DNA from: Achromobacter sp. AONIH1
GTDB taxonomy: Bacteria; Pseudomonadota; Gammaproteobacteria; Burkholderiales; Burkholderiaceae_B
Direction: 5' to 3'
Assembly: GCF_002902905.1 (NCBI RefSeq)
Contig: NZ_CP026124.1
Location: 2,356,001 to 2,420,000 of the forward strand
Length of the DNA stretch: 64,000 nucleotides
In this document: positions 745 through 20,696 of the stretch, in pieces
Layout: each line of letters begins with the position of its first letter
How positions within the stretch are numbered: position 1 is the stretch's first letter
Notes under the pieces: generated by a model
The model's input: only the letters and a program-made list of their open reading frames with translations
What the model was told of the DNA's origin: nothing
Database searches by the model: none
Made by a program: the position numbers and the translations under genes

Positions 745-1283
745 AGTGCCCTGAATCCCACCACCATGTCGGCCCGCAGCCGGCGACATGGCAGTCCGTC
801 CCGCCTCCCAGCGGGACAACCAGCGCGCGACTCCTTCTGCAACGGTGTGCGCGCCTCTGCGGACCGCCTTTGGTCCACGAGGCGAGAAGGCCACTTTTAC
901 CCGAATCGCGCGCCTGCGCATTCTCCTGATCGGCATTTCTTCCGTCCGCAGAGAGGGGTCTCCTGGTGCCTCGCAAGCATGGCGCTACGCGAGCCACCAG
1001 GAGACCCCTCAAGGTCGATGGTATTCAGCGCCGGAGCCCGCCGGCGAATCAACGGGCGCCCTTTGTGCGCGGATGTGTGCCAGGCAATACCGACCCCAGC
1101 CACGATATGGGTCGGATGTGAATGCTGAAACAGCGGACGGTTCTACCGACGACCGAACCCTGTGCAGCCCATGGGTGGTGACCTTGTCTTGAGTCGGAGG
1201 CCAGACGGCCTCCGGCACCTCCTCACGCCGTACCAGGGCGTGTAGCGCACCCCGAATAATCACGCACCATCGCGGAACGTCTC
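745..1283. other. Gene-free, hairpin-rich spacer after topB
   Basis: No convincing gene. The stretch holds several inverted repeats: arms 764-771 and 784-791 (CCATGTCG/CGACATGG), a long pair at 953-1010 listed separately, and arms 1196-1202 and 1207-1213 (GGAGGCC/GGCCTCC). None has a clear U-tract, so they are not textbook terminators. The spacer leads into the promoter and leader of the next unit. Confidence 0.6.
953..1010. repeat. Long inverted repeat, 22-bp arms
   Basis: Left arm 953-974 and right arm 989-1010 are complementary over 22 bases with one mismatch and a 14-base loop. The outer arm reads GAGGGGTCTCCTGGTG. There is no U-run after it, so a rho-independent terminator is unlikely. 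It could be a transcript-end structure, a protein-binding cruciform or a remnant mobile-element end. Confidence 0.8.
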
Positions 1284-1300
1284 GGTTCCCATTTCCTGAC
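1284..1300 (+). promoter_or_regulatory. Conserved box upstream of leader A
   Basis: GGTTCCCATTTCCTGAC, 56 bases before the first helix of leader A. A near-identical box stands 57 bases before leader B and related boxes stand 55 and 59 bases before leaders C and D. The fixed spacing suggests a shared promoter or activator site. No good sigma-70 -10 element is visible nearby. Confidence 0.5.
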
Positions 1301-1339
1301 GACAGGACCAACCCCGACCAAGATCCTTGGCACTGGGTC

Positions 1340-1464
1340 GCTGATTCATCAGCAACCGCCAGCAGCCACGGTCGCCCCAGGCTGCGCCACGCCCCCGGCG
1401 TGTCGACCATCCCCATCCGCATCGCGTCGTGCCGCGGATGCCCGCCCGCCAGGGCGGAGATGCA
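1340..1464 (+). ncRNA. Structured leader, copy A (upstream of the GHKL ATPase gene)
   Basis: Four helices in order: P1 1340-1353 (GCTGAT/ATCAGC), P2 1362-1367 with 1380-1385 (GCAGCC/GGCTGC), P3 1388-1393 with 1397-1402 (CACGCC/GGCGTG) and P4 1442-1447 with 1452-1457 (CCGCCC/GGGCGG), then the invariant GATGCA at 1459-1464. The same helix order with different but complementary sequences recurs at 3324, 9387 and 10929. It ends about 140 bases before the start codon at 1601, which fits a 5' untranslated leader. Confidence 0.7.
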
Positions 1465-1600
1465 TCGCAATCCCTCGGGCGCTCCTGCCCATTTCAAGCT
1501 CAAGCCGACCACCTCCCTGTGTGCGCGGCGCTTTCGTTCGCCTTCTGGCGACCAACCCACCCAAACGTCCAATGACGCAGAACCCTCCAAGGAGTTTTTC

Positions 1601-3163
1601 ATGAACACCATCCGTCTTCAGACGAACCAGAACCGTCTTATCGCCAACCTTCGCCATGCTTTCAACCAGAGCTCGATGCTCGGGGAACTGCTGCAGAACG
1701 CCAGGCGTGCTCAAGCCAGCGCCATCCACTTCACCGTAGATGACAGCAGCCTCACCATCCGTGACAACGGCAGCGGCATAGCCAACCTGCAGACCCTCAT
1801 CCACATTGCCGAGTCCAGCTGGGACGAACAGACCCAGACGCGCGAGAACGCTTTCGGCATGGGTGTGTTGTCCACGTTGTACTTCGCCGAACGCCTGGCC
1901 GTCCGCTCCGGTGGCAAGGCATTCAGTGCCGCGACGGCGGCTATCATCCGCGGCGAGCCGATTGAATTGGTTTCCTGCGATCTTTTTGAAGGCACGGAAA
2001 TCCGCTTGGATGGCATCCAGCCGACGCAGCCGGGAGAGACCCTTCCTGTTTGGGCTGACCGTCTTCTGCGCGCCCTGTGCGAAGCCTTTCCAGTTCCAGT
2101 CTGGCTCAATGGCGACGCAGTGCTTCGCCCCCTGGCGGACCTTGCGCTGCAATGGCGCGAGACACCCATGGGCAAGATCCTGCTCGACCTCTCCGCTTCA
2201 CGCACGCAGTGGCGGTGCTTCCTTCAAGGCCTTCCGATTGGTCGATCACCGTCGATCTGCAGGCACCACGTTGTACAGCTGCCAACTGCAACGCTCGCCA
2301 GGCTTCCCGATCGCCAGCATCTGCTGAACGAAGCGGAAGACCACAAGCGCATCCAAGTCGCGATCGACAGCGCCTTTCGCCAGGCATTGATCGAGACCAA
2401 GGAGCGCCTCTCGGCCAGCGACTTCATCGTGAACTACGCGCGCATCTGCATGGACTCATCTAACGCCGATTTGCTCAACGACGTTCCTTTCGTTCCACAA
2501 GCCTGGTTCCGATCCTGGGCCCTTGACCCGTCCGGATTCCGCCGTTACTGGGACCGGCACGTGGCCGAGGGCATCGTGGCTCGGGAGGTACTGGAAGAAA
2601 CTGGTGCTTGGCTGATCGAATCGGATGGCAATGATGCGCCTACGGCTGAGGTGTACCTGGAGGCTCGCAAAGCGTTCTTGCTCGATGAGAGCGGGATCGA
2701 CGGCGGGCACTGGTTACTGGGGCTTGTAAGGCCCATCACGCCGGAGGAAGTACAGGTCCGCCCAGGCGCCATCCTGCATCATGACGCCAGCCTGTGTCTG
2801 GCCGACTACGAGGTCGAGTTGACCTTGGCCGACTGCCTGAACGTCAGCATCGAAGGCGAGCCGGAAGTTGCGGTCGGCGCCATTCGCAAAGGCGTCACGT
2901 TGTTCCTCACCGCCGATGCAGGCGGTGCGACGGCGCTGGTCTCCGACTACATCTTCGATGATCGCTATGACGAGGATCGCGAGGACGAAGACGGCCGGAC
3001 CATCGACACCTTCATCGCCGTAGGCTGTTCGCAGTCTCCGGCCGGGGTTGTGCAGGCCCTGCTGCCCTTCACCTTGCGGTATGCAACGCAACCAAGGTTA
3101 GCAGGTGCGGTTGTTCATCTGACCTTCGATGCTGAAGGAAAGCTGGCAGCAGTCACCGCCTGA
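1601..3163 (+). CDS. GHKL-type ATP-binding protein (Hsp90/MutL-like ATPase fold)
   Basis: A 520-residue protein with an N-terminal histidine-kinase-like ATPase domain: N-box ELLQNARRAQAS at about 28-39, DNGSGI (G1 box) at about 55-60, and FGMGVLS in the ATP-lid region. No HisKA, receiver or MutL C-terminal domain is recognisable in the remaining 350 residues, so this is not a sensor kinase. The start at 1601 is chosen because AAGGAG lies 6 bases upstream; an upstream in-frame ATG at 1400 would lie inside the structured leader. It is a single-gene unit, opened by leader A and closed by a terminator at 3187. Its role in the element is unknown; ATP-driven clamp or remodelling activity is an inference from the fold. 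Confidence 0.75.
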   Translation: MNTIRLQTNQNRLIANLRHAFNQSSMLGELLQNARRAQASAIHFTVDDSSLTIRDNGSGIANLQTLIHIAESSWDEQTQTRENAFGMGVLSTLYFAERLAVRSGGKAFSAATAAIIRGEPIELVSCDLFEGTEIRLDGIQPTQPGETLPVWADRLLRALCEAFPVPVWLNGDAVLRPLADLALQWRETPMGKILLDLSASRTQWRCFLQGLPIGRSPSICRHHVVQLPTATLARLPDRQHLLNEAEDHKRIQVAIDSAFRQALIETKERLSASDFIVNYARICMDSSNADLLNDVPFVPQAWFRSWALDPSGFRRYWDRHVAEGIVAREVLEETGAWLIESDGNDAPTAEVYLEARKAFLLDESGIDGGHWLLGLVRPITPEEVQVRPGAILHHDASLCLADYEVELTLADCLNVSIEGEPEVAVGAIRKGVTLFLTADAGGATALVSDYIFDDRYDEDREDEDGRTIDTFIAVGCSQSPAGVVQALLPFTLRYATQPRLAGAVVHLTFDAEGKLAAVTA

Positions 3164-3186
3164 CACTGCTGTCCACCAACCACTGC

Positions 3187-3212
3187 GCCCCCGGGATTTC
3201 CGGGGGCTTTTT
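3187..3212 (+). terminator. Intrinsic terminator of the GHKL ATPase unit
   Basis: Arms 3187-3194 and 3200-3207 (GCCCCCGG/CCGGGGGC) with a 5-base loop, followed by five T at 3208-3212. It lies 24 bases after the stop codon at 3163. Confidence 0.9.
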
Positions 3213-3266
3213 GTTGCGAAAAGAGGCACATCGAGCATCGGCATGGCATTAATCCGGTCCAGCCTG

Positions 3267-3286
3267 GGTTCCCATTTCTCCCTGAC
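3267..3286 (+). promoter_or_regulatory. Conserved box upstream of leader B
   Basis: GGTTCCCATTTCTCCCTGAC, almost the same as the box before leader A and 57 bases before helix P1 of leader B. It lies after the terminator at 3187-3212, so a new transcript should begin here. Confidence 0.5.
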
Positions 3287-3323
3287 GCCAACCGCTGCAT
3301 GGGCAAAGCTGCCCGCATGTGTC

Positions 3324-3448
3324 GCTGACGTTGTCAGCACCATGCCAGCAGCAAGGATCCTCCGGCTGCGCAGGGAATCCCCTCCCTGAGATCCACCAGT
3401 CCGCCATCGCATCGGTCCGCGGATGAACGCCATTCAGGCGTCGATGCA
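3324..3448 (+). ncRNA. Structured leader, copy B
   Basis: P1 3324-3338 (GCTGAC/GTCAGC), P2 3348-3352 with 3365-3369 (GCAGC/GCTGC), P3 3371-3376 with 3383-3388 (CAGGGA/TCCCTG), P4 3427-3431 with 3437-3441 (ACGCC/GGCGT), then GATGCA at 3443-3448. P1 is followed by ACCATGCCAGCAG, shared in part with the other copies. It fills the 359-base space between the terminator and the gene at 3523. Confidence 0.7.
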
Positions 3449-3522
3449 TCTTTCTTCAACCCTCGCGGGAACTGCCATCCCGACAGGGGCACGGCCGTCT
3501 CGCTGTCACCTAGGAGTCGTCC

Positions 3523-3735
3523 ATGTCTCACCGCGCCTCTTTCGGCCATCTGGCCTTGGTCTACGTCGGCAAATACCTGTCGCTTGAAGTCATGCAAAGC
3601 GCAGCGGGCCACTACATCGGCACCCGCGACAGCGAAGGCCCCGTGTCTCGCGAATCGAACGAGTACTTCCGAAGCGCAGCCAGTGCCCAGCGAGCCCTCG
3701 AAAGAGGCGGCTGGACCCAGTTGCCCAACCCCTGA
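3523..3735 (+). CDS. Small conserved ICE protein, unknown function
   Basis: A 70-residue protein starting MSHRASFGHLALVYVGKY, with a TAGGAG ribosome-binding site 7 bases upstream of the ATG. It is the first gene of the unit opened by leader B and is followed 22 bases later by the next gene. No domain, signal peptide or membrane segment is recognisable; the C-terminal half (SAASAQRALERGGW) looks helical. Function unknown. Confidence 0.7.
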   Translation: MSHRASFGHLALVYVGKYLSLEVMQSAAGHYIGTRDSEGPVSRESNEYFRSAASAQRALERGGWTQLPNP

Positions 3736-3757
3736 TCCCTCAGCAAGGAGATACACC

Positions 3758-4150
3758 ATGAACCAGCTTCTGCCTCCGGAAGTCGTTGAACAGATCATGC
3801 GGGAAGAGCAGCATTTCGCATGTGCTCCGGACGCATTCTTTCAAGCTTGGAAGCGCGGTGCCGAAATCGCAGGACCCGAGTGGTTCGGCAACGGTACCCA
3901 CGAAGGCCTGCAGCACGCCACCAGCAAGTGGGATCTCCGTCCCAACATGCTGACGCTCAACGATGCCCTCGGCGTTCTGAGCAGCGGTCAACGCATGTTC
4001 CTGTCCGCGATGGTCAGCTTCTACAACGCCCGTGAGGGTGCTGCGATGCTGCGCCGTTGTGGATTTGAAGGGCTTGCCGATCTCGGCGGCCTGGATCTGG
4101 AACGTCGTCAGGTCATCGCCGACCTGGTGCTGAACTACAGCGGCTGGTAA
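3758..4150 (+). CDS. Conserved ICE protein, unknown function (130 aa)
   Basis: The start at 3758 follows AAGGAG 7 bases upstream; a longer frame reaching 3584 overlaps the preceding gene and has no ribosome-binding site. The acidic, mostly helical protein (MNQLLPPEVVEQIMREEQ...) has no domain I can name. Typical of the small orphan proteins in this module. The length and codon use match its neighbours, so it is a real gene in the leader-B unit. Confidence 0.7.
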   Translation: MNQLLPPEVVEQIMREEQHFACAPDAFFQAWKRGAEIAGPEWFGNGTHEGLQHATSKWDLRPNMLTLNDALGVLSSGQRMFLSAMVSFYNAREGAAMLRRCGFEGLADLGGLDLERRQVIADLVLNYSGW

Positions 4151-4188
4151 GCCCCACCAGGGCAACCTCCGCATTTTTTCACACCCAT

Positions 4189-4222
4189 GAGGGACATCAG
4201 TTCCTTCGGGGCGGTGTCCCTC
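4189..4222 (+). other. Spacer hairpin before the gene at 4246
   Basis: Arms GAGGGACA (4189-4196) and TGTCCCTC (4215-4222), 8 perfect base pairs, ending 24 bases before the start codon. One of a series of spacer hairpins in this module. Confidence 0.6.
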
Positions 4223-4245
4223 CTTCTTCTCACAGGAGCCACACC

Positions 4246-4707
4246 ATGTCCCGAACTCCCTCCTTTGCGGTCGTCCTCGAAGGTGGCCTGGTCCAGGCCA
4301 TCGTCGTTCAAGACTGGCCCCGCCATCTTCCGATGCCACCATTTGTTGTCGTGGACTACGACACCGAAGGTGCCGACGATGACGAAATCACGCGGTTTTC
4401 CATCGGTCAGAGTACAGCCGAGGCCATCTGCCGCGGCGATACGCCGACCGTCTTCGAGTCTCTTTCGGATGCGCTGTCTCCCCGCATCGTGCTCACGGCG
4501 CTGGGCGAGTCGATCACCGACGAAGCGCCCGAGCCTCTGGCCTTGGCCCGCTCGGTACGCCAGGAAATCGTCGATCTGGACACCCGCCTGAACGACGCCG
4601 AACAGGCACCGACGGGCGACGACTACAACCAGCTGTACGTCCTTGCCAACTGCGGCCTCATCGAGGTGCAGAAGGCACTGGGCGACACCACTGACTTCGG
4701 CGACTGA
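4246..4707 (+). CDS. Conserved ICE protein, unknown function (153 aa)
   Basis: Starts MSRTPSFAVVLEGGLVQAIV with CAGGAG 8 bases upstream. The protein is strongly acidic with DYDTEGADDDE near residues 37-47 and no cysteine pair, signal or membrane segment. The N-terminal FAVVLEGGLVQAIVVQDWP reads as two beta strands. It belongs to the leader-B unit, separated from its neighbours by hairpin-bearing spacers. No function can be assigned. Confidence 0.7.
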   Translation: MSRTPSFAVVLEGGLVQAIVVQDWPRHLPMPPFVVVDYDTEGADDDEITRFSIGQSTAEAICRGDTPTVFESLSDALSPRIVLTALGESITDEAPEPLALARSVRQEIVDLDTRLNDAEQAPTGDDYNQLYVLANCGLIEVQKALGDTTDFGD

Positions 4708-4750
4708 CTCGCCTTCCACCTTGGCCCGATGCAGCACGCATCAGGCCCTT

Positions 4751-4775
4751 CCTCGCGGATGCCATGTCCGCGAGG
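4751..4775 (+). other. Spacer hairpin before the gene at 4808
   Basis: Arms CCTCGCGGA (4751-4759) and TCCGCGAGG (4767-4775), 9 perfect base pairs, 32 bases before the next start codon. Confidence 0.6.
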
Positions 4776-4807
4776 GCTGGCTCCGCTCCAACCTCAAGGA
4801 GCCAGTC

Positions 4808-5467
4808 ATGGCAAACAACTACTACGACGCCACCGGCGTTCTCGTTCTCGATCGGGTCACCCCTGTGATAACCGCCTTGTTCGGCGGCTTCAAGCTTGAC
4901 GCGTCGCACCCCGGCGACGGGCAGGCCTACATCGCCCTCGTTGCCGAGGACAACAACCCGAGCTGGGTAGACCTCTGCGCAGGGCTTTCGGAGCTGGCTA
5001 CCTCGCTTGGCCTCCCGTTACCCGACGATTCCCAGACAGTCGAACCGCTGCTGGCGAGCCTGTCCCTGCATTTCGGCGCCGACCAGGACGAAGCACTGGC
5101 GCATCTCATCGAGCACCATCTATTCGAGGATGCCGCGGACCTTGATGCACTGTTTCTGATCGCGACCCGATTCGATGATGGCCACGGACTTCAGGAAATC
5201 CGTTTCGAGGGCTGCTGGCACTGCAGCAAGCCGCGCCTCTTCAACTTCGGAGGCGACGCGCAGTTTTTCAGCCGAGAGTTCGTGGCGTACTGCACTTCCG
5301 GACAGGCGCTGCAGCTTGGCGATTCGGTTCGCCAGGCACTACTCAGACAAGACCTGGAAGCGGTCGCCAGCCACTTCACGCGCGAAGTTCAACGCTTGCT
5401 TGCAGGCATTCAGGACGAATCGGTACGCGTTCAAACGCAAAAGCGGCTGTCCTCACTGCTGCACTGA
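4808..5467 (+). CDS. Conserved ICE protein, unknown function (219 aa)
   Basis: The ATG at 4808 is preceded by AAGGAG (about 8 bases), which decides it over the longer frame from 4643. The protein starts MANNYYDATGVLVLDRVTP; it is acidic and soluble, with a central FEGCWHCSKPRLFNF segment whose two Cys are the only metal-ligand-like feature. The N-terminal strand-rich half (VTPVITALFGGF, AYIALVAEDNNPSW) and helical C-terminus suggest a two-part fold. Unknown function. Confidence 0.7.
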   Translation: MANNYYDATGVLVLDRVTPVITALFGGFKLDASHPGDGQAYIALVAEDNNPSWVDLCAGLSELATSLGLPLPDDSQTVEPLLASLSLHFGADQDEALAHLIEHHLFEDAADLDALFLIATRFDDGHGLQEIRFEGCWHCSKPRLFNFGGDAQFFSREFVAYCTSGQALQLGDSVRQALLRQDLEAVASHFTREVQRLLAGIQDESVRVQTQKRLSSLLH

Positions 5468-5539
5468 AGCCGAAGTTATTCCGCACTGAACATCCACCTC
5501 ACTCATCGCCTGAGTGCGGTGAATTTCCTCCCCCTCGGG

Positions 5540-5562
5540 GCCAAGCCCTGGTAGGGGTTGGC
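5540..5562 (+). other. Spacer hairpin before the gene at 5594
   Basis: Arms GCCAAGCCC (5540-5548) and GGGGTTGGC (5554-5562), 9 base pairs including one G-U, 31 bases before the next start codon. Confidence 0.6.
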
Positions 5563-5593
5563 TCCACTTCAACCCTCATAGGAGAATGTCACC

Positions 5594-6316
5594 ATGATCC
5601 AGCAGATCAATCCCTTTGCTCGCGGCTACTACGGCTTCGAGATTCGACGCGTGGCGGTGATCAGCTATGACGATCGCCATCCGCAAACCTTTGTTCCACT
5701 GCATCCCACGCAGCATCACCTGCCTGATGACCAGATGGCCTTGCACGCCTGCATATTCAATGAAGGGTACGCCCTGGTCACGGAGCATCAAGTGATACCC
5801 GGAGACTTGGATGTCAGTTGTAGTGGCAGTGGAACCATTCTGGCGGTTTTCTATAGCATCTACGGCAAGGACGTCGAAGGCGCGCTGATTCATCTTGGAG
5901 ACAGCCAGACCCGGGAGTTTGCGCAGGAAGTCGTGCGCACGCTGACATTCGAGACCGGCTTCTACAGCCGGTGCTGGGAGATCAGCACTGCCCACATCAC
6001 CGACGAAGCAGGCCGATTCCTCTGCGAGCTCGCCGACATCGCGACACCGACAGCGTTTCTCTTCGTGGCATTTCGTATCCCATACAGCCCGGCCATAGGC
6101 ATCAAGCTGATCGCCACTCCCTGGACGGATATAAATCTGCAGCAGGTAGAAGGCACCACAGCTACCGACCTTCGTGCGGAACACCGTGCCAAGGGTGTAC
6201 CAGAGGAACTGATCGACGTGTTGCACCTGGCTGGCCAGGCTGACGTGCGCATGCTGGTCCTCGATGCGGACGCCTCCATTCTGGAGGGCCTGCCGGTGAT
6301 TGAGGAAGAAGCGTAG
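5594..6316 (+). CDS. Conserved ICE protein, unknown function (240 aa)
   Basis: Begins MIQQINPFARGYYGFEIRR, with TAGGAG 9 bases upstream. The sequence alternates strands and loops without signal peptide or membrane segments; no enzymatic motif is visible. It is the last gene of the leader-B unit, with a terminator directly behind it at 6353. Function unknown. Confidence 0.7.
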   Translation: MIQQINPFARGYYGFEIRRVAVISYDDRHPQTFVPLHPTQHHLPDDQMALHACIFNEGYALVTEHQVIPGDLDVSCSGSGTILAVFYSIYGKDVEGALIHLGDSQTREFAQEVVRTLTFETGFYSRCWEISTAHITDEAGRFLCELADIATPTAFLFVAFRIPYSPAIGIKLIATPWTDINLQQVEGTTATDLRAEHRAKGVPEELIDVLHLAGQADVRMLVLDADASILEGLPVIEEEA

Positions 6317-6352
6317 GTCCTTGCAAACGCGTCAACCATCAGCCCATTCCGA

Positions 6353-6374
6353 GCCCCTCCAACGAGGGGCTTTT
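6353..6374 (+). terminator. Intrinsic terminator of the leader-B unit
   Basis: Arms GCCCCTC (6353-6359) and GAGGGGC (6364-6370) with a 4-base loop, then TTTTCTTTT. It lies 36 bases after the stop of the preceding gene and separates the + strand unit from the convergent minus-strand pair. Confidence 0.85.
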
Positions 6375-6415
6375 CTTTTGGCCGGGTTTGAATCGGTCAC
6401 CCGTCGGGGTCACCG

Positions 6416-7276
6416 TCAGGCGCCGCGCTCCCTGTAGTACCCCGCGCGCTGGCCATCGACCTCCCGGTAGCGAAGCTCGAACAGGCGTGACTCATGCACC
6501 ACCTGCCGCCAACTGCTGCAGCCATACTTGGATGGCACTTGGTCCGGATACTTGGCCAGTATCCAGCGACCTGCCTTCGCAGCGGGTGTCCAACCGTCTT
6601 CCGCAAGCTCACCAATTGCTTCGCGCAAGCCTCGAACGATCCCTGACGCCGCCCAATCAATGGAGCCATCTGGCGCGATGCCATTGACCACCAACTCATG
6701 AAAAGCGCTGGACTGTACGAATTCGGCCGCCAAGCGACGTGCTTGATCCATGTGCTCGGCCCACCCGCGCAGTTGCTCAAAATGCTGATCGATGCGGCTG
6801 TAGGCACCGACAAGCGCTTCCTGCGCACTACGACAGCCCTGCACTGACCACAGGTCGTGGTGATCAATGAAGTGATGTACCAGGCCATTGCGCAGCGCCA
6901 CCAAGTCACGCAGCTCCGCCTGTGTGCGTTGATAATCTTCGGCGCCCATACTCAGTTGAAGGCGCATGCGCACCGTCGCGACCTTACCAACGACAGGATC
7001 AGCCAGTTCCTCCTCTAGACCCGAATCGGTCACGACGTAAGAGCCGAACAACTGACCAACCATGGTGCCTAGCGTCTTCGTCGCGGCATCCTCCACTCGG
7101 GCCGCGCGGATAGCCTCCAACGCTGTGGCCGGGCCTGAGAGATCGTGATGCGCCACGATGGCTTTCATCAGACGTTCGTACTGCTGAATCCGCAGCAGAC
7201 ATCGCCCCAGCAAGCGCTGTACTTCCCATTGCGCACACGTCATCTTATCGCCGGGGCCTCCGTTGCAAGTAGTCAC
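6416..7276 (-). CDS. OST-HTH/LOTUS-domain protein
   Basis: A 286-residue protein whose C-terminal 60 residues read as an OST-HTH/LOTUS winged helix (AAKAGRWILAKYPDQVPSKYG ... RLFELRYREVDG), a module known for binding RNA, including G-rich and structured RNA. The N-terminal 190 residues are helical, with a central LVALRNGLVHHFIDHHDLW segment resembling a HEPN-like helical bundle (RNGLVHH; the RxxxxH pattern is present as RNGLVH). The start is GTG at 7276, overlapping the TGA of the upstream cyclase gene (GTGA), so the two are translationally coupled. A role in RNA control linked to c-di-GMP signalling is an inference from the pairing. Confidence 0.75.
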   Translation of the reverse strand: MTTCNGGPGDKMTCAQWEVQRLLGRCLLRIQQYERLMKAIVAHHDLSGPATALEAIRAARVEDAATKTLGTMVGQLFGSYVVTDSGLEEELADPVVGKVATVRMRLQLSMGAEDYQRTQAELRDLVALRNGLVHHFIDHHDLWSVQGCRSAQEALVGAYSRIDQHFEQLRGWAEHMDQARRLAAEFVQSSAFHELVVNGIAPDGSIDWAASGIVRGLREAIGELAEDGWTPAAKAGRWILAKYPDQVPSKYGCSSWRQVVHESRLFELRYREVDGQRAGYYRERGA

Positions 7277-9120
7277 TTAACCTCTTCCGTGTTTTTGGAA
7301 ACAGACTTGATCGCAACCGCCTGGATCCGGCCTTTGCCTCCTTTTTTTACTGCATACATCATTTCGTCTGCTCTTCGCAGCAAGTCTTGCGGAGCAGAGT
7401 CCCCGGATCCGACAACGATTCCGATACTTGCGTCGATTTGCACATACTTACCAGGCGCAATCTCAATGCTCTCGCGAATCTGCTCAAGGCAGCGCTGCAT
7501 TACTAGCGTTGCTCCGGCAGTGCCTTCGACAGAGTTCAGCAGGACAGCAAACTCGTCCCCTCCAAGCCGTGCGACTACATCGTTACCGCGGACGGCCTCC
7601 GCTAACCGCTTGGCCGTCTGGCACAGTACCGTATCACCGGCATCATGGCCGTAGGCATCATTGATTTTCTTGAACCCATCAAGATCCATGTAGCAAACTG
7701 CAATAAGATGGTTGTTGCGACGCGCATTAGACAAAGCGCCCTCAAGGCGTAGGTCGAACAATCTCCGATTTGCAATTCCGGTAAGCGAGTCGCTTAATGC
7801 CAAATCCTGGGCATTCTTTTCGCTACGCTTTATTGAGTCAATATCCACCATCATCCACAAACTTTCTTTTTCAGACACTGCTGCGCCGCTTAGATCAATC
7901 CAAATAACCTCACCACTCTTTCGTTGCATTTGCAGCTGTACTGAATATCGACCATCATTACGGAGCGCCGCATATCCAGCCATTCCAATACGCTGATGAT
8001 CTTCATCGCTCAAGTACAGATGCCGTGATGGCCGCCCATCCAGCTGCCCGCTTTCATACCCGAATATTCGCGATGTCGCCATATTCGCCCAGGCTATTTT
8101 CCTCTCGCGCACTTTCATCATTCCAACGAGATTATTCTCAAGCATCAGGCTCTGTTGTTGGACAACACTAACAGCCTCAAGCCGGGCTTTTCTTTCTGCT
8201 CTCTGCGTACGGAAAAGATAGTAGGAGTATGCTGCGGTGATCCCTAGAACCATAAGTACAAGAAGAGCCTGACGAAAAACCTCAGCCCTCCAGTTTTTAA
8301 GAAACTCATCCGTAGCCAAACCCGTAAGAGCGATAAGCGGATAGCCCTCAATTCGAGAGTACGCGGTGATTCGCTCGATATGATCAAGCGCCGTTGGCGT
8401 GATATACCAGCCCCTTTCGTCTCCCTTGGCCAATTGATCCAAAAGCTCGTCTGAAACGATTTTTTCACCAAGTCCTTTTTTTGACCACGGATCAGACCTA
8501 GAAAATCTAGCAACTAGATTTAGAGCGCTTGTTCGCAAAGCGATCGCACCAGCAGCCCCCATATCCAGTCGGGAGAATCTCGTCATCAGTGCATCCGACT
8601 CGACCTCAGCATAAATGAGGCCGTAGAAATCCCCATTTTTGGTCCGGAGCCCTCGAGCCAAAACAATGCACCATTCATTCGAGTCATCACACACAACTGG
8701 CTCAGAAAAAACCATCCTTTCCGCATGCGCAGCTGATATAAAGTGTGAGAATTCAGAGACATCCGTTGTCTTTCCGTTTATCTTGATTCCTACTGCTCCC
8801 GAAGCGTCGGCAAATCTGAGATTAGATACTTGTGACAGCAGCATCCCTTGCTCCGCCAGCTCTTTCGTCACAATCTTATTTCGCTCATCCTCTGAGTTTG
8901 CATCACTCACCCTAAATGCAATTGTCGACAAAGAGTTCTCGATCAAGTGCATTTGCGCGCCAATCTCAATACTCAAACTGTTCGCAAGATTCGCCGCAGC
9001 CTGTTGCGCCTCGTATATATCCGCATTGCGGCTGTTTTTTAGACTTAGCGAGACCCCAAAAATTAGAATAGAGGCAACAGCCACATTAGAGAAAACCAAC
9101 AAAGAAGCAAGGCGCAGCAT
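7273..9120 (-). CDS. Membrane diguanylate cyclase (sensor + PAS + GGDEF)
   Basis: A 615-residue protein: membrane segment at about 5-25, a roughly 250-residue periplasmic sensor region, second membrane segment at about 285-305, a PAS-like domain (about 325-440) and a C-terminal GGDEF domain. The catalytic ARLGGDEFAVLL is intact, and RGND five residues before GGDEF matches the product-inhibition I-site (RxxD), so it should make c-di-GMP and be feedback-controlled. GAGG lies 7 bases upstream of the ATG. Base composition is lower in GC than the surrounding ICE genes, suggesting later acquisition. Diguanylate cyclases are known cargo on other ICEs (SXT/R391). It is coupled to the LOTUS gene downstream. 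Confidence 0.92.
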   Translation of the reverse strand: MLRLASLLVFSNVAVASILIFGVSLSLKNSRNADIYEAQQAAANLANSLSIEIGAQMHLIENSLSTIAFRVSDANSEDERNKIVTKELAEQGMLLSQVSNLRFADASGAVGIKINGKTTDVSEFSHFISAAHAERMVFSEPVVCDDSNEWCIVLARGLRTKNGDFYGLIYAEVESDALMTRFSRLDMGAAGAIALRTSALNLVARFSRSDPWSKKGLGEKIVSDELLDQLAKGDERGWYITPTALDHIERITAYSRIEGYPLIALTGLATDEFLKNWRAEVFRQALLVLMVLGITAAYSYYLFRTQRAERKARLEAVSVVQQQSLMLENNLVGMMKVRERKIAWANMATSRIFGYESGQLDGRPSRHLYLSDEDHQRIGMAGYAALRNDGRYSVQLQMQRKSGEVIWIDLSGAAVSEKESLWMMVDIDSIKRSEKNAQDLALSDSLTGIANRRLFDLRLEGALSNARRNNHLIAVCYMDLDGFKKINDAYGHDAGDTVLCQTAKRLAEAVRGNDVVARLGGDEFAVLLNSVEGTAGATLVMQRCLEQIRESIEIAPGKYVQIDASIGIVVGSGDSAPQDLLRRADEMMYAVKKGGKGRIQAVAIKSVSKNTEEVK

Positions 9121-9331
9121 TCATCATCCTCTTTCGACAGCCTTTTGAAACCCCGTGATTACTGGCACATTCCCCAGATGGTCATCATATTTATGATATG
9201 TCAGGCACAACCCGCAGGAAATACCGGCGAGCCCTCTGATGATCCGTTATGCATGCCTAGGCCGGGGCTCCACCACTAGAGACCATTCTCCCCATACACC
9301 TCGAAGGGCTGCCAACAATGCGAAGACGTGA
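9121..9331. other. Divergent intergenic region between the cyclase gene and leader C
   Basis: No gene seen. It should hold the minus-strand promoter of the cyclase/LOTUS pair and the upstream part of the leader-C promoter. It includes an AT-rich patch near 9186-9200 (ATCATATTTATGATAT), a short palindrome of the kind bound by dimeric regulators. Confidence 0.4.
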
Positions 9332-9350
9332 GGTTCGCTTTTCGAGTGAC
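9332..9350 (+). promoter_or_regulatory. Conserved box upstream of leader C
   Basis: GGTTCGCTTTTCGAGTGAC, related to the boxes at 1284 and 3267, and 55 bases before helix P1 of leader C. Confidence 0.4.
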
Positions 9351-9386
9351 GTTGGAGGTGTCTGGGTTCACGCTGCGTATATGTTA

Positions 9387-9450
9387 GTCGGCGTAGCCGG
9401 CAACATCCCAGGCGGTCAAGGCCATCAAGACCGCGGTGCGCCATCGGCGT
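9387..9450 (+). ncRNA. Structured leader, copy C (shorter)
   Basis: P1 9387-9401 (GTCGGC/GCCGGC, pairing through one U-G), P2 9412-9417 with 9429-9434 (GCGGTC/GACCGC), P3 9438-9442 with 9446-9450 (GCGCC/GGCGT). The linker ACATCCCAGGC matches ACATGCCAGGC of copy D. A P4 equivalent is not clear; instead a different 11-bp hairpin stands at 9496-9522. This most diverged copy carries the best compensating base changes. Confidence 0.6.
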
Positions 9451-9495
9451 TCTGGCAGTATCAATCCTTTGAACGTTCTTTGTTCTACAAATCCA

Positions 9496-9522
9496 CCCTA
9501 AGGGACAAACTGTCCCTTAGGG
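9496..9522 (+). other. Perfect 11-bp hairpin before the gene at 9559
   Basis: Arms CCCTAAGGGAC (9496-9506) and GTCCCTTAGGG (9512-9522) with a 5-base loop, 36 bases before the start codon and 24 bases before its ribosome-binding site. Confidence 0.7.
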
Positions 9523-9558
9523 CTGGTGAGTCCCGTTTTCGTTTCAGGAGACTCCACC

Positions 9559-10356
9559 ATGGATCACCAAGCCATTCGCCAGCAGCTTCCCTTGTTGGTC
9601 GCCGGCCACCTGCCAGGCAACGCGCGTAGCTTTCAGTTCAACATCTTTGACGGTCAGCCCAAGGAATCCGCCCTGGGCTTTCGCATCGACCCCCAGCCCT
9701 TCGACGGCAAGGTCGTTGCGACCACCGACGAAGCCATAGTCGTCAAGATCGGCCGCACACAGTTCGCCGTGCTGGACCGCGAACTGGTCACTGACATCCC
9801 TGTCGAAGGGGCCAAGGTCACTGTCCAACCTTACGCACGCCGACGTTTCGATGGCTTGCGCGCCGACACTCCGGAAGACGTCGTGGAACATACCTCGGAC
9901 GGCACGCCGTATAAGGTCACCCGACTGATTCTCGGCTCGGCGCCGGCGCACTTGCCGGTTGCAAAGCCGGTGTGCCTTGAACTGCAGCAGCTCATCGAGC
10001 AATTGGAGTCCATGCCCGCACCGGATCAGCACCGCACCATCAGCCACATGCTGGTCGATGCCCACGCCAGCGAATTCACACTGGTCGATCCGTCACCGAA
10101 GGACATCATCCGCACTCCGCCGACGATCAGCTTCAACGTGGTCACCGGCAAGTTTGATGGTCGCGTAAGCGTGCTGTATCTGCGCGGCGACGACGTCTAT
10201 GCCATCGAGCTGCACCGCGATGGCAAATGTGTCGAGCGGCGCGACGAGGTGTACTTCGACATGCTCGGCGACACCTTGGCACACCTGATCGACGACGGCT
10301 CCTGGCGTCGCATTCAGGTCCAGCCTATCTCCGGCCGCAAGGCCACCTCCCATTAA
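9559..10356 (+). CDS. Conserved ICE protein, unknown function (265 aa)
   Basis: First gene of the leader-C unit; ATG at 9559 with CAGGAG 9 bases upstream, favoured over a longer frame from 9526. The protein (MDHQAIRQQLPLLVAGHLPG...) is strand-rich through its first 120 residues and mixed afterwards, with no signal peptide, membrane segment or catalytic motif. The repeated VVKIGRTQFAVLDRELVTDIP pattern suggests a beta barrel. It is followed by the DUF3085 gene after an 79-base spacer with a hairpin. Function unknown. Confidence 0.7.
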   Translation: MDHQAIRQQLPLLVAGHLPGNARSFQFNIFDGQPKESALGFRIDPQPFDGKVVATTDEAIVVKIGRTQFAVLDRELVTDIPVEGAKVTVQPYARRRFDGLRADTPEDVVEHTSDGTPYKVTRLILGSAPAHLPVAKPVCLELQQLIEQLESMPAPDQHRTISHMLVDAHASEFTLVDPSPKDIIRTPPTISFNVVTGKFDGRVSVLYLRGDDVYAIELHRDGKCVERRDEVYFDMLGDTLAHLIDDGSWRRIQVQPISGRKATSH

Positions 10357-10372
10357 CTGCTGGACCGCGACC

Positions 10373-10397
10373 GAGCCAACCGCCCAGGGATTGGCTC
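10373..10397 (+). other. Spacer hairpin before the DUF3085 gene
   Basis: Arms GAGCCAA (10373-10379) and TTGGCTC (10391-10397), 7 perfect base pairs, 38 bases before the next start codon. Confidence 0.5.
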
Positions 10398-10435
10398 GTG
10401 CTCGCACCTCATCCAATCCCGTCAAGGAATATCTC

Positions 10436-10801
10436 ATGACTCTGCTCTTCAAAGGCAGTGCGCTTCGACCTGTCCTGGCCGAGGCCATAGCCAACCAATG
10501 CCGCGTCATCCTGGTCAAGGATCAGGGCGTGTACTGGCTCGCCGAGCATGGCGAGCGTAGGCCCGATAAACGCCAGAAGCTGATTGCCTATGCAGTTGGC
10601 TGCGATCCGGATGTCGATCCGTTCGATGACTGGTGGGAACTGGCGCGCATCGAGTTGGGTGGCGACGACTTCGGCGAGTTCTTCGACCCGAACGAAGGCG
10701 TACTCACACGCATCCTGAACAGCACCGATGACCTGGTGCTGTCTGCCTCGCTCACGCACCTGTCGCTGCAGGCCGTGCCGCCCACCGCACAAGACCACTG
10801 A
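10436..10801 (+). CDS. DUF3085 family protein
   Basis: A 121-residue protein recognised as DUF3085 from its N-terminus (LLFKGSALRPVLAEAIA ... VYWLAEHGER), an ICE- and plasmid-borne family without known function. AAGGAA lies 7 bases before the ATG at 10436. Soluble, acidic, no membrane segment; the centre is rich in Asp/Glu and aromatic residues (DPFDDWWELARIELGGDD). It ends the leader-C unit, with a strong terminator 12 bases after its stop. From memory, structured RNA motifs have been reported near DUF3085 and DUF3577 genes, which bears on the leaders described here. Confidence 0.75.
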   Translation: MTLLFKGSALRPVLAEAIANQCRVILVKDQGVYWLAEHGERRPDKRQKLIAYAVGCDPDVDPFDDWWELARIELGGDDFGEFFDPNEGVLTRILNSTDDLVLSASLTHLSLQAVPPTAQDH

Positions 10802-10813
10802 CCCTGCATCCCA

Positions 10814-10846
10814 AAGAGCCTTCGCCAGTCGAAGGCTCTTTCTTTT
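10814..10846 (+). terminator. Intrinsic terminator of the leader-C unit
   Basis: Arms AAGAGCCTTCG (10814-10824) and CGAAGGCTCTT (10830-10840), 11 perfect base pairs with a 5-base loop, followed by TTCTTTT. It separates the DUF3085 gene from the leader-D unit. Confidence 0.95.
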
Positions 10847-10869
10847 GGGCCTGCGCAAAGCGGTCGCGG

Positions 10870-10887
10870 GGTATTTCCTATTTGCCG
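10870..10887 (+). promoter_or_regulatory. Conserved box upstream of leader D
   Basis: GGTATTTCCTATTTGCC, a weaker relative of the box at 1284, 59 bases before helix P1 of leader D and downstream of the terminator at 10814-10846. Confidence 0.35.
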
Positions 10888-10928
10888 TGGCGGTCCGTCG
10901 CCCATGGTGTGACGCTGCGTCCATGCTT

Positions 10929-11063
10929 GCTGACGTAGTCAGCGACATGCCAGGCAACCATCGGTCTTCGAGGTTGCGGCGCAGCTCCCGCTGCGCGACC
11001 ACACCAGTTCGCACCGCATCCTTACTCGAACGGCCATCGGTTCTCCGGTGGTGGATGCAATTG
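10929..11063 (+). ncRNA. Structured leader, copy D (upstream of the DUF3577 gene)
   Basis: P1 10929-10943 (GCTGAC/GTCAGC), P2 GCAACC/GGTTGC (left arm about 10953, right arm about 10972), P3 GCGCAGC/GCTGCGC (about 10979-10996), P4 CCATCGG/CCGGTGG (about 11033-11051, one U-G), then GATGCA near 11053. This copy heads the longest unit of the module (11150-19653). A further GCGGGG/CCCCGC pair lies between it and the start codon. Confidence 0.7.
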
Positions 11064-11149
11064 CCGTTCTCAACCCATCGCGGGGTTACGCACCTCTCCC
11101 CGCATCGTGGGGTTGGTGTGTCTCCGCTCTTTTCCTATGGAGATTCACC

Positions 11150-12070
11150 ATGACCACCACGTCCAACGAGAAATCCTATTTCGACCTCCACACCTCCGGC
11201 ATCGGCTACCTGCAGCGTGCCCGTGAGGTTCCCGTCAAGGGAGGCCGCCGCGCACAGCCGTTCCTGGCTTGCACGATCGCCGCCCTAGTTGGTTCCGCCA
11301 AGGAGCCGTCCATCCGCTACTTCGACGTCAAGGTGTCCGGCACCGAGGCCAAGAAGCTGGTTCAGTCCTACGTCGGCATCGATGATCCCAAGCAGCGTCC
11401 GCTGGTCCGTTTCCGGCTCGGCGACCTGTGGGGCGATGCGTTCATCCGCCCCAGCGGTGAACGTCAGGGTGAAGTGGCAGCGAGCCTCAAGGGGCGCCTG
11501 CTGAAAGCCGAGGTGATCGATCGCGCCGAACTGGCAACGATCGAGCAGCACGAGCTCATCACCCGCGGCATCGGCTACCTGAGCCGTCCGAAGGAGGTCA
11601 CTCCCAAGGATCGCGATCCGTTCCTGTCGTGCTCCATCGGAGCGCTGACCGGCCCGGTCGGTGAACCGGAGTATCGCTACTTCGACACCATCGTCGCTAC
11701 CACCGACGCCCAGCATCTGGTCCGTCGCTGCGTTCAGGCCATCGAGGCTGAACGCAAGGTCCTGATCGCCTTCCGACTGAACGACATGCGGGCTGACCCG
11801 TACGTGCGCACCAAGGGCGAACGAGCCGGCGAGCCGGGCGTGAGCCTGGAGTCCACGCTGGTCCACATCGGTCTGATCAAGGTCGATGGCCAGCAGGTCT
11901 ATCCGGCTGCTGCAGTCAATGCCGAAGCACCTGCAACCCCGGACGCGCAAGCGACCGAGGCCAAGGGCACTGCCGAAAGCGGCGACGCCGCCCAGCCCAC
12001 CGAGCCCGCCCCGCGCGAGCCCGAAGCTGAAGCGGTCGAGCACGAACCGGCAATGGCGGCTTCGTTCTGA
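11150..12070 (+). CDS. DUF3577 / STY4534-family ICE replication protein, tandem-duplicated
   Basis: A 306-residue protein made of two copies of the DUF3577 fold: residues about 6-125 (YFDLHTSGIGYLQRAREV ... IRYFDVKVSG) and about 135-255 (IEQHELITRGIGYLSRPKEV ... YRYFDTIVAT), followed by an Ala/Pro/Glu-rich disordered tail. The family is annotated as an ICE replication protein and its strand pattern resembles single-strand-binding OB folds; DNA binding is an inference. The ATG at 11150 follows TATGGAG by 8 bases, favoured over a frame from 11048 inside the leader. First gene of the leader-D unit. Confidence 0.85.
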   Translation: MTTTSNEKSYFDLHTSGIGYLQRAREVPVKGGRRAQPFLACTIAALVGSAKEPSIRYFDVKVSGTEAKKLVQSYVGIDDPKQRPLVRFRLGDLWGDAFIRPSGERQGEVAASLKGRLLKAEVIDRAELATIEQHELITRGIGYLSRPKEVTPKDRDPFLSCSIGALTGPVGEPEYRYFDTIVATTDAQHLVRRCVQAIEAERKVLIAFRLNDMRADPYVRTKGERAGEPGVSLESTLVHIGLIKVDGQQVYPAAAVNAEAPATPDAQATEAKGTAESGDAAQPTEPAPREPEAEAVEHEPAMAASF

Positions 12071-20653: not shown

Positions 20654-20696
20654 GGTAGCCGACCGGCATCCCGGAAAAACTGGACGCGCGCCATTG

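Follow-up and report, generated by a model that had tools for sequence, protein, structure and literature searches.

In translational riboswitches, a structured domain is followed by mutually exclusive pairings which either hide or free the Shine-Dalgarno (SD) sequence. The radC RNA motif was listed without a function by Weinberg et al. (2010), who regarded it as certainly an RNA, probably cis-regulatory and doubtful as a riboswitch (PMC2864571; this paper, PMC7657543, PMC9286271 and PMC2892462 are all cited here from excerpts of their text). Four copies of this motif lie in the stretch analysed here, 64,000 nucleotides of Achromobacter sp. AONIH1 (NZ_CP026124.1, positions 2,356,001 to 2,420,000; hereafter the window). 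They are predicted to be messenger RNA (mRNA) leaders of what is likely an integrative and conjugative element (ICE) of the ICEclc type. Our preferred reading, held tentatively and at close to even chances, is that pseudoknots in these leaders steer a hairpin which hides the SD, with translation following only after refolding or binding.

The window copies resemble the radC RNA motif in sequence, in helices P1 to P3 and in their 5' position; the Rfam structure line for radC RNA lacks the helices PK1, X and Y described below. Covariation support for radC RNA has been reported to exceed that in database structures, with no detail in the excerpt (PMC7657543); some of the PK1, X or Y pairs may already be recorded in the supplements behind that paper. 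The STAXI motif also has pseudoknots near genes for DNA-handling proteins (PMC2864571); unlike radC RNA it is a repeated simple pseudoknot, and nothing in the window reaches the gathering threshold for it. radC RNAs sit before five open reading frames (ORFs) of the transfer-competence regulon of ICEclc, which has been described at the promoter level; neither radC nor a leader is mentioned in the excerpts (PMC9286271, PMC2892462). No paper linking radC RNA to ICEs was found in the literature searched, supplements excluded. The element itself is thus known (RF01754); what is added here is the revised fold, the folding strand, the predicted two-state platform in several leader families and the ICEclc placement.

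An earlier note on this DNA had described four structured leaders and proposed an Rfam search. In that search (cmscan), all four match radC RNA, RF01754, above the gathering score of 40 bits, with E-values from 2e-8 to 9e-23 (Table 1). The note was correct about the P1, P2 and P3 arms, their + strand and the leader position of each copy 5' of a gene unit. Copy 1 precedes a GHKL-ATPase gene (1601-3163) and copy 2 a five-gene unit (3523-6316) with DUF5983 in its last member, both as the note had proposed. Copy 3 precedes a unit at 9559-10801, in which a KfrB-like gene (the KfrB match is below threshold) is followed by a DUF3085 gene; copy 4 precedes a unit from 11150 with a DUF3577/STY4534 ICE replication gene and then a DUF932 gene. 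The reported motif near DUF3085 and DUF3577 genes, to which the note had tentatively assigned its leaders, is radC RNA. Of the three unit-end terminators it mentioned, two, at 3187-3207 and 6351-6372, appear in a terminator scan, which gave 11 terminator-like sites overall against 9.8 expected; the third, 10813-10846, is visible by eye only.

Table 1. Coordinates of the radC RNA copies and associated features (window positions)
Feature	Position	Strand	Basis
radC RNA copy 1	1323-1463	+	RF01754, 65.6 bits; alignments
radC RNA copy 2	3306-3447	+	RF01754, 79.5 bits; alignments
radC RNA copy 3, subclass with other 3' domain	9370-9523	+	RF01754, 58.3 bits; subclass alignment
radC RNA copy 4	10912-11058	+	RF01754, 121.9 bits
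PK1 of copy 4	GGTC 10963-10966 / GACC 10997-11000	+	covariation in relatives
Helix X of copy 4	GTTCG 11007-11011 / CGAAC 11027-11031	+	covariation in relatives
Helix Y of copy 4, interleaved with X	GCATCC 11016-11021 / GGATGC 11053-11058	+	per-cluster pairing
Predicted two-state platform of copy 4	anti-anti-SD 11080-11094; anti-SD 11115-11127; SD and start 11139-11152	+	fold, family statistics
Copy 3: 3' hairpin and predicted platform strands	hairpin 9498-9507/9511-9520; anti-SD 9525-9533; SD strand 9546-9558; ATG 9559	+	subclass alignment, fold
Shared upstream motif, 55 bases 5' of copy 1	1268-1302	+	score 14.4
Shared upstream motif, 55 bases 5' of copy 2	3251-3285	+	score 30.5
Shared upstream motif, 55 bases 5' of copy 4	10857-10891	+	score 24.1

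The fold was examined in a collection of relatives: 554 of 570 nhmmer hits were kept, giving 304 distinct copies that were aligned by sequence alone. Covariation was scored by mutual information with average-product correction (a score of our own, with no tree-based null) on 299 of the 304 sequences, divided by P2-loop pattern into a set of 248, which still includes a few rows of subclass C, and a set of 51; a parallel run on representatives of 108 of 110 clusters gave a similar result. Although no structure was supplied, P1, P2, P3, P4, X, PK1 and Y together account for 11 of the 20 top-scoring column pairs. Among 12,880 column pairs, X takes ranks 2 and 3, PK1 rank 10 and Y rank 16. Since the remaining nine of the top 20 (ranks 6, 7, 9, 11 to 14, 19 and 20) are unpaired and lie outside the proposed helices, relatedness also raises this score.

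In PK1, the P2 loop pairs with the bases directly 3' of P3. Helices X and Y interleave, so that the 3' domain is an H-type pseudoknot enclosing the P4 hairpin. When each cluster contributes a single sequence, X pairs completely in 81 of 86 clusters, with 24 strand combinations; permuted partners give 38.5 on average and 47 at most. Y does so in 71 of 86 clusters, against an average of 34.8 and at most 43 under permutation (6.8 and 15 after shuffling), and PK1 in 62 of 85, against 42.9 and 50 under permutation. In a pair count over 44 copies, X is 99.6% paired with double changes in three pairs, PK1 95.5% with double changes in two, and Y 82.7% with zero double changes; in 500 shuffles, a control that ignores relatedness, the five totals were never attained. 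In alignment A1, a one-base shift of the template row led to P2 being mis-scored (37.6% paired). By eye, helix X is GTCCGC/GCGGAT in copy 2 and ATCCGC/GCGGAT in copy 1; helix Y is GCATCG/CGATGC in copy 2 and GCGTC/GATGC, with one G-U, in copy 1. Covariation across relatives supports two pseudoknots, one formed by PK1 and the other by interleaved X and Y. Selection on structure, which the earlier note had read from compensating changes, is borne out by covariation and paired helices across relatives. Its nested helices P1 to P4 are real parts of a richer fold with PK1, X and Y added, and the GATGCA that it saw after P4 is present and holds the 3' strand of the separate helix Y.

The 3' domain of the Rfam model fits copies 1, 2 and 4. 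Copy 3 aligns poorly there, yet its whole match passes the cut-off; model R1 covers only its positions 11-99 of 147 in this copy. The subclass to which copy 3 belongs (54 leaders by pattern, including a few strays) mostly lacks helix Y and runs into the ribosome-binding site.

Downstream of the radC domain, the predicted platform was examined in 107 leaders, each representing one gene family in one cluster; control genes were called with a simple ORF caller in our own script. The mean probability that the SD is unpaired is 0.15 in these leaders; the corresponding values are 0.44 for 224 genes from the same chromosome and 0.39 for 102 Pseudomonas knackmussii genes. For the SD-to-ATG strand, pairing with its own upstream sequence is 2.9 kcal/mol more favourable than pairing with the upstream sequences of other families; the value for control genes is +0.3. 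Own and other-family pairing energies are -16.6/-11.6 for the DUF3577 family, -16.8/-12.7 for the ORF84835 type and -17.7/-14.4 for RadC, with -16.2/-13.1 and -14.9/-12.0 in two smaller families. The anti-SD can also pair with a segment farther upstream, at an energy similar to that of the SD-hiding pairing (own/other-family -17.2/-12.1, -17.5/-13.5, -17.8/-14.8, -16.9/-14.6 and -17.9/-11.1 in five families, -11.0/-10.1 in a sixth). The weaker of the two pairings ranks at most 1 among 30 shuffles in 58% of the 107 leaders; in chromosomal controls this is true of 8% of 289 genes and 0% of 67.

In the window, the predicted SD hairpin is clear in copy 4, partial in copy 3 and unsupported in copies 1 and 2. 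The copy 4 SD is unpaired at 0.00 against 0.16 in shuffles; the fold that frees it consists of a single long alternative helix and lies 7.5 kcal/mol higher than the fold in which the SD is paired. The competitor in copy 3 is weak (-12.2), and freeing the SD costs 6.2, 5.4 and 4.6 kcal/mol in copies 3, 2 and 1. Where present, the hairpin would presumably control translation.

The same leaders occur well beyond the window. The four copies first noted are real, and the element is wider: the 6.65 Mb genome holds 14 radC RNAs, which form three clusters, five near 0.22-0.26 Mb, five near 2.21-2.25 Mb and four near 2.36 Mb, and the 14 control genomes of this search hold none. RF01754 matches occur in 39 of 268 genomes of the window's own family, 12 of 399 in a sample of its order (9 exceed the cut-off), 2 of 369 in a sample of its class, and 133 of 398 in the family of a Pseudomonas locus. 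This scattered distribution fits a mobile element. A protein scan with DUF3577 found 168 relatives, of which the best 80 loci were kept; these include loci from Hydrogenophaga, Stenotrophomonas, Xanthomonas, Pseudomonas, Achromobacter, Bordetella, Burkholderia and a Tistrella plasmid. Each of the best 80 loci has at least one radC RNA, and all 243 copies found there lie on the strand of the DUF3577 gene.

ICEclc serves as the reference element. The genome that carries it here is very probably that of P. knackmussii B13, since ORF stops reproduce the ICEclc ORF numbers (14 at one offset, nine at an offset 16 bases away). Five radC RNAs are found in ICEclc, at approximately 89.7, 88.8, 85.8, 82.8 and 59.1 kb, before ORFs 89247, 88400, 84835, 81655 and 58432; the 85.8 kb copy was found by model R1 and is not in the nhmmer set. 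Stationary-phase read coverage has been reported upstream of ORFs 88400 and 81655; coverage upstream of ORF81655 is the highest of all, fluorescence does not match it, and post-transcriptional mechanisms were suggested (PMC9286271). For the regions preceding ORFs 58432, 81655, 88400 and others, 5' rapid amplification of cDNA ends did not yield a specific product (PMC2892462). These data fit a transcribed, strongly structured leader; the authors do not interpret them in this way in the excerpts cited. By analogy with ICEclc, the window leaders are presumably transcribed as well.

The four copies are likely translational leaders of the element's transfer regulon. A more specific proposal, possible and distinctly less probable than the reading given at the outset, is that radC RNA acts as the sensor of a translational switch with two states. 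In this switch, a double-pseudoknot domain would stand before an anti-anti-SD/anti-SD/SD platform at four to five places per element, keeping replication and transfer proteins untranslated until a transfer-specific signal arrives. In the preferred reading, the likely order of events is that the leader is transcribed in transfer-competent cells and folds with its SD held in the predicted hairpin. A signal (an element protein, a host protein or a small molecule) would then act on the pseudoknotted domain; the competing pairing would be favoured, the SD would open and the replication-module genes would be translated. As in translational riboswitches, a structured domain is combined with alternative SD pairings, predicted here for copy 4 and several families; unlike in riboswitches, the platform also occurs without the domain, and no ligand is known. 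If the proposal is true, a widespread family of conjugative elements controls its spread at the translation step too, through an RNA layer below the known transcriptional cascade, and this could bear on the published discrepancy at ORF81655, where reporter signal does not follow read coverage. For ICEclc, transcripts have been mapped and both reporters and deletion strains exist, which makes radC RNA function testable.

Several results weigh against translational control by these leaders. The SD is already unpaired at only 0.23 in shuffled leaders; composition thus explains part of the occlusion. Within-family compensation is weak, since the pairing gain over other clusters of the same family is only 0.6 kcal/mol. 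The hairpin is unsupported in the ORF88400 type, which includes copy 2 (own/other -13.8/-13.1), in the GHKL gene family of copy 1 (-7.8/-10.3) and in the ORF89247 type (-10.0/-10.8). The copy 3 SD does not beat its shuffles (0.39 unpaired against 0.30), and freeing that of copy 4 costs 7.5 kcal/mol. Among ICE genes that lack radC RNA, 15% in a set of 150 and 8% in a set of 60 likewise pass the two-pairing test. Inside the five-gene unit, genes 4246 and 4808 have strong anti-SD/SD hairpins and no radC RNA (regions 4151-4260 and 4711-4822; freeing costs 8.6 and 14.7 kcal/mol). To our knowledge, no ligand or binding protein is known for radC RNA. Finally, deletion of ORF81655-75419 or ORF88400-84388 did not measurably change ICEclc transfer (PMC9286271). 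The suggestion in the earlier note that one shared leader regulates the whole replication module at once goes beyond what these results show.

Two other readings were rejected. SD hairpins as a general ICE trait are not indicated, as SD accessibility over whole regions is close to that of chromosomes (window, p 0.22 and 0.52; ICEclc stretch, p 0.03 and 0.24) and the module reaches only the 15% and 8% given above in genes without radC RNA. Transcription attenuation was dismissed for want of a consistent U-run after the platform, judged by eye.

Processing or stability may instead be the level at which the radC domain acts, given that a supported platform is missing from two of the window's four copies and that the module occurs without the domain. 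The fold would then separate and stabilise unit transcripts, and the SD hairpins would be an independent gene feature; we regard this as unlikely, and as the strongest competitor. Coverage in ICEclc rises at 84835 and 89247 in the absence of reporter activity, for which the authors suspected processing (PMC9286271), and the units run as separate transcripts on Northern blots (PMC2892462). The copies before RadC-type genes, which have coding sequence on their 5' side and lack the upstream motif described below, also agree with processing. Against it stand the much higher frequency of the SD module at radC leaders (58%, compared with 15% and 8% at other ICE genes) and the lack of any mapped cleavage.

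That each element has four to five copies, which share a core and precede different genes, suggests a single trans-acting factor. The pseudoknots might thus be the target of an autoregulating element protein, like the leaders of ribosomal-protein genes, with no small molecule involved. No candidate protein has been identified, and this is a special case of the preferred pseudoknot-steered hairpin, inseparable from it by sequence; as an explanation of its own it appears improbable.

Wobble pairs indicate which strand folds. Over P1, P2, P3, PK1 and X, weighted G-U cells amount to 104.2 against 260.0 expected from composition, and weighted A-C cells to 32.2 against 188.7. G-U is tolerated more than A-C, which argues that the gene-sense strand folds. 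Single-stranded DNA promoters occur in leading regions of plasmids, and the radC RNAs belong to conjugative-element genes and have one orientation only; a promoter of this type (Frpo), folded in the transferred template strand, is nevertheless highly improbable, because template-strand G-T reads as sense A-C, the rarer class, and the wobble test thus shows the reverse of what such a fold would favour. A fold of the sense strand as DNA would be compatible with the counts.

A shared motif, AAtncGGnnncgnnncgnTgCCGATT, learned solely from regions 5' of radC RNAs, has 48 sites which start 51 to 60 bases 5' of a radC RNA. Three families have it in 15 of 24, 17 of 20 and 13 of 21 of their clusters, respectively, and it is found in none of 12 RadC clusters or four ORF89247-type clusters. 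Controls (20 pieces of 20 kb) reach a maximum score of 10.2. Copy 3 has a degenerate site only (9316, score -3.4). Two minus-strand genes at 6416-9120, one of them a GGDEF-type diguanylate cyclase by eye, lie between unit 2 and copy 3, where they break an otherwise conserved order, and may have removed the upstream motif of this copy. Transcription in the window's host would presumably come from the region of the motif. A role confined to 5' ends, such as processive antitermination, is unlikely, given the conserved coding sequence 5' of RadC-gene copies and the absence of the motif from all 12 clusters.

Eight ICEclc sites score above the controls (88.87, 85.89, 96.08, 67.69, 74.37, 94.00, 82.86 and 58.35 kb). 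Sites occur at four of the seven published motif-bearing promoters in the stretch (88400, 81655, 67231 and inrR) and are absent from those of 58432, alpA and traI, the last two at their presumed places. Two sites lie at 84835 and 73676, which are reported to lack the published 27-bp motif (PMC9286271); for this reason the two motifs are not claimed to be the same. The published inrR start (96,204; PMC2892462) lies approximately 120 bases upstream of the motif site rather than downstream, which speaks against a simple promoter.

The window has no RadC gene by tblastn and no fifth radC RNA by cmscan; in the two other clusters of the genome and in ICEclc, a fifth copy lies approximately 24-27 kb or further downstream of the DUF3577-type copy. 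Further strong upstream-motif sites with no radC RNA after them occur on the + strand of the window at 20677 (27.8), 37702 (23.3) and 27005 (16.2). Hydrogenophaga palleronii NBRC 102513 has a DUF3577 protein 99% identical to that of the window, compared with 73-78% at the other 79 loci; at the level of sequence, this near-identity suggests recent transfer. The same leaders are found on plasmid pTM3 of Tistrella mobilis, an organism outside the usual hosts.

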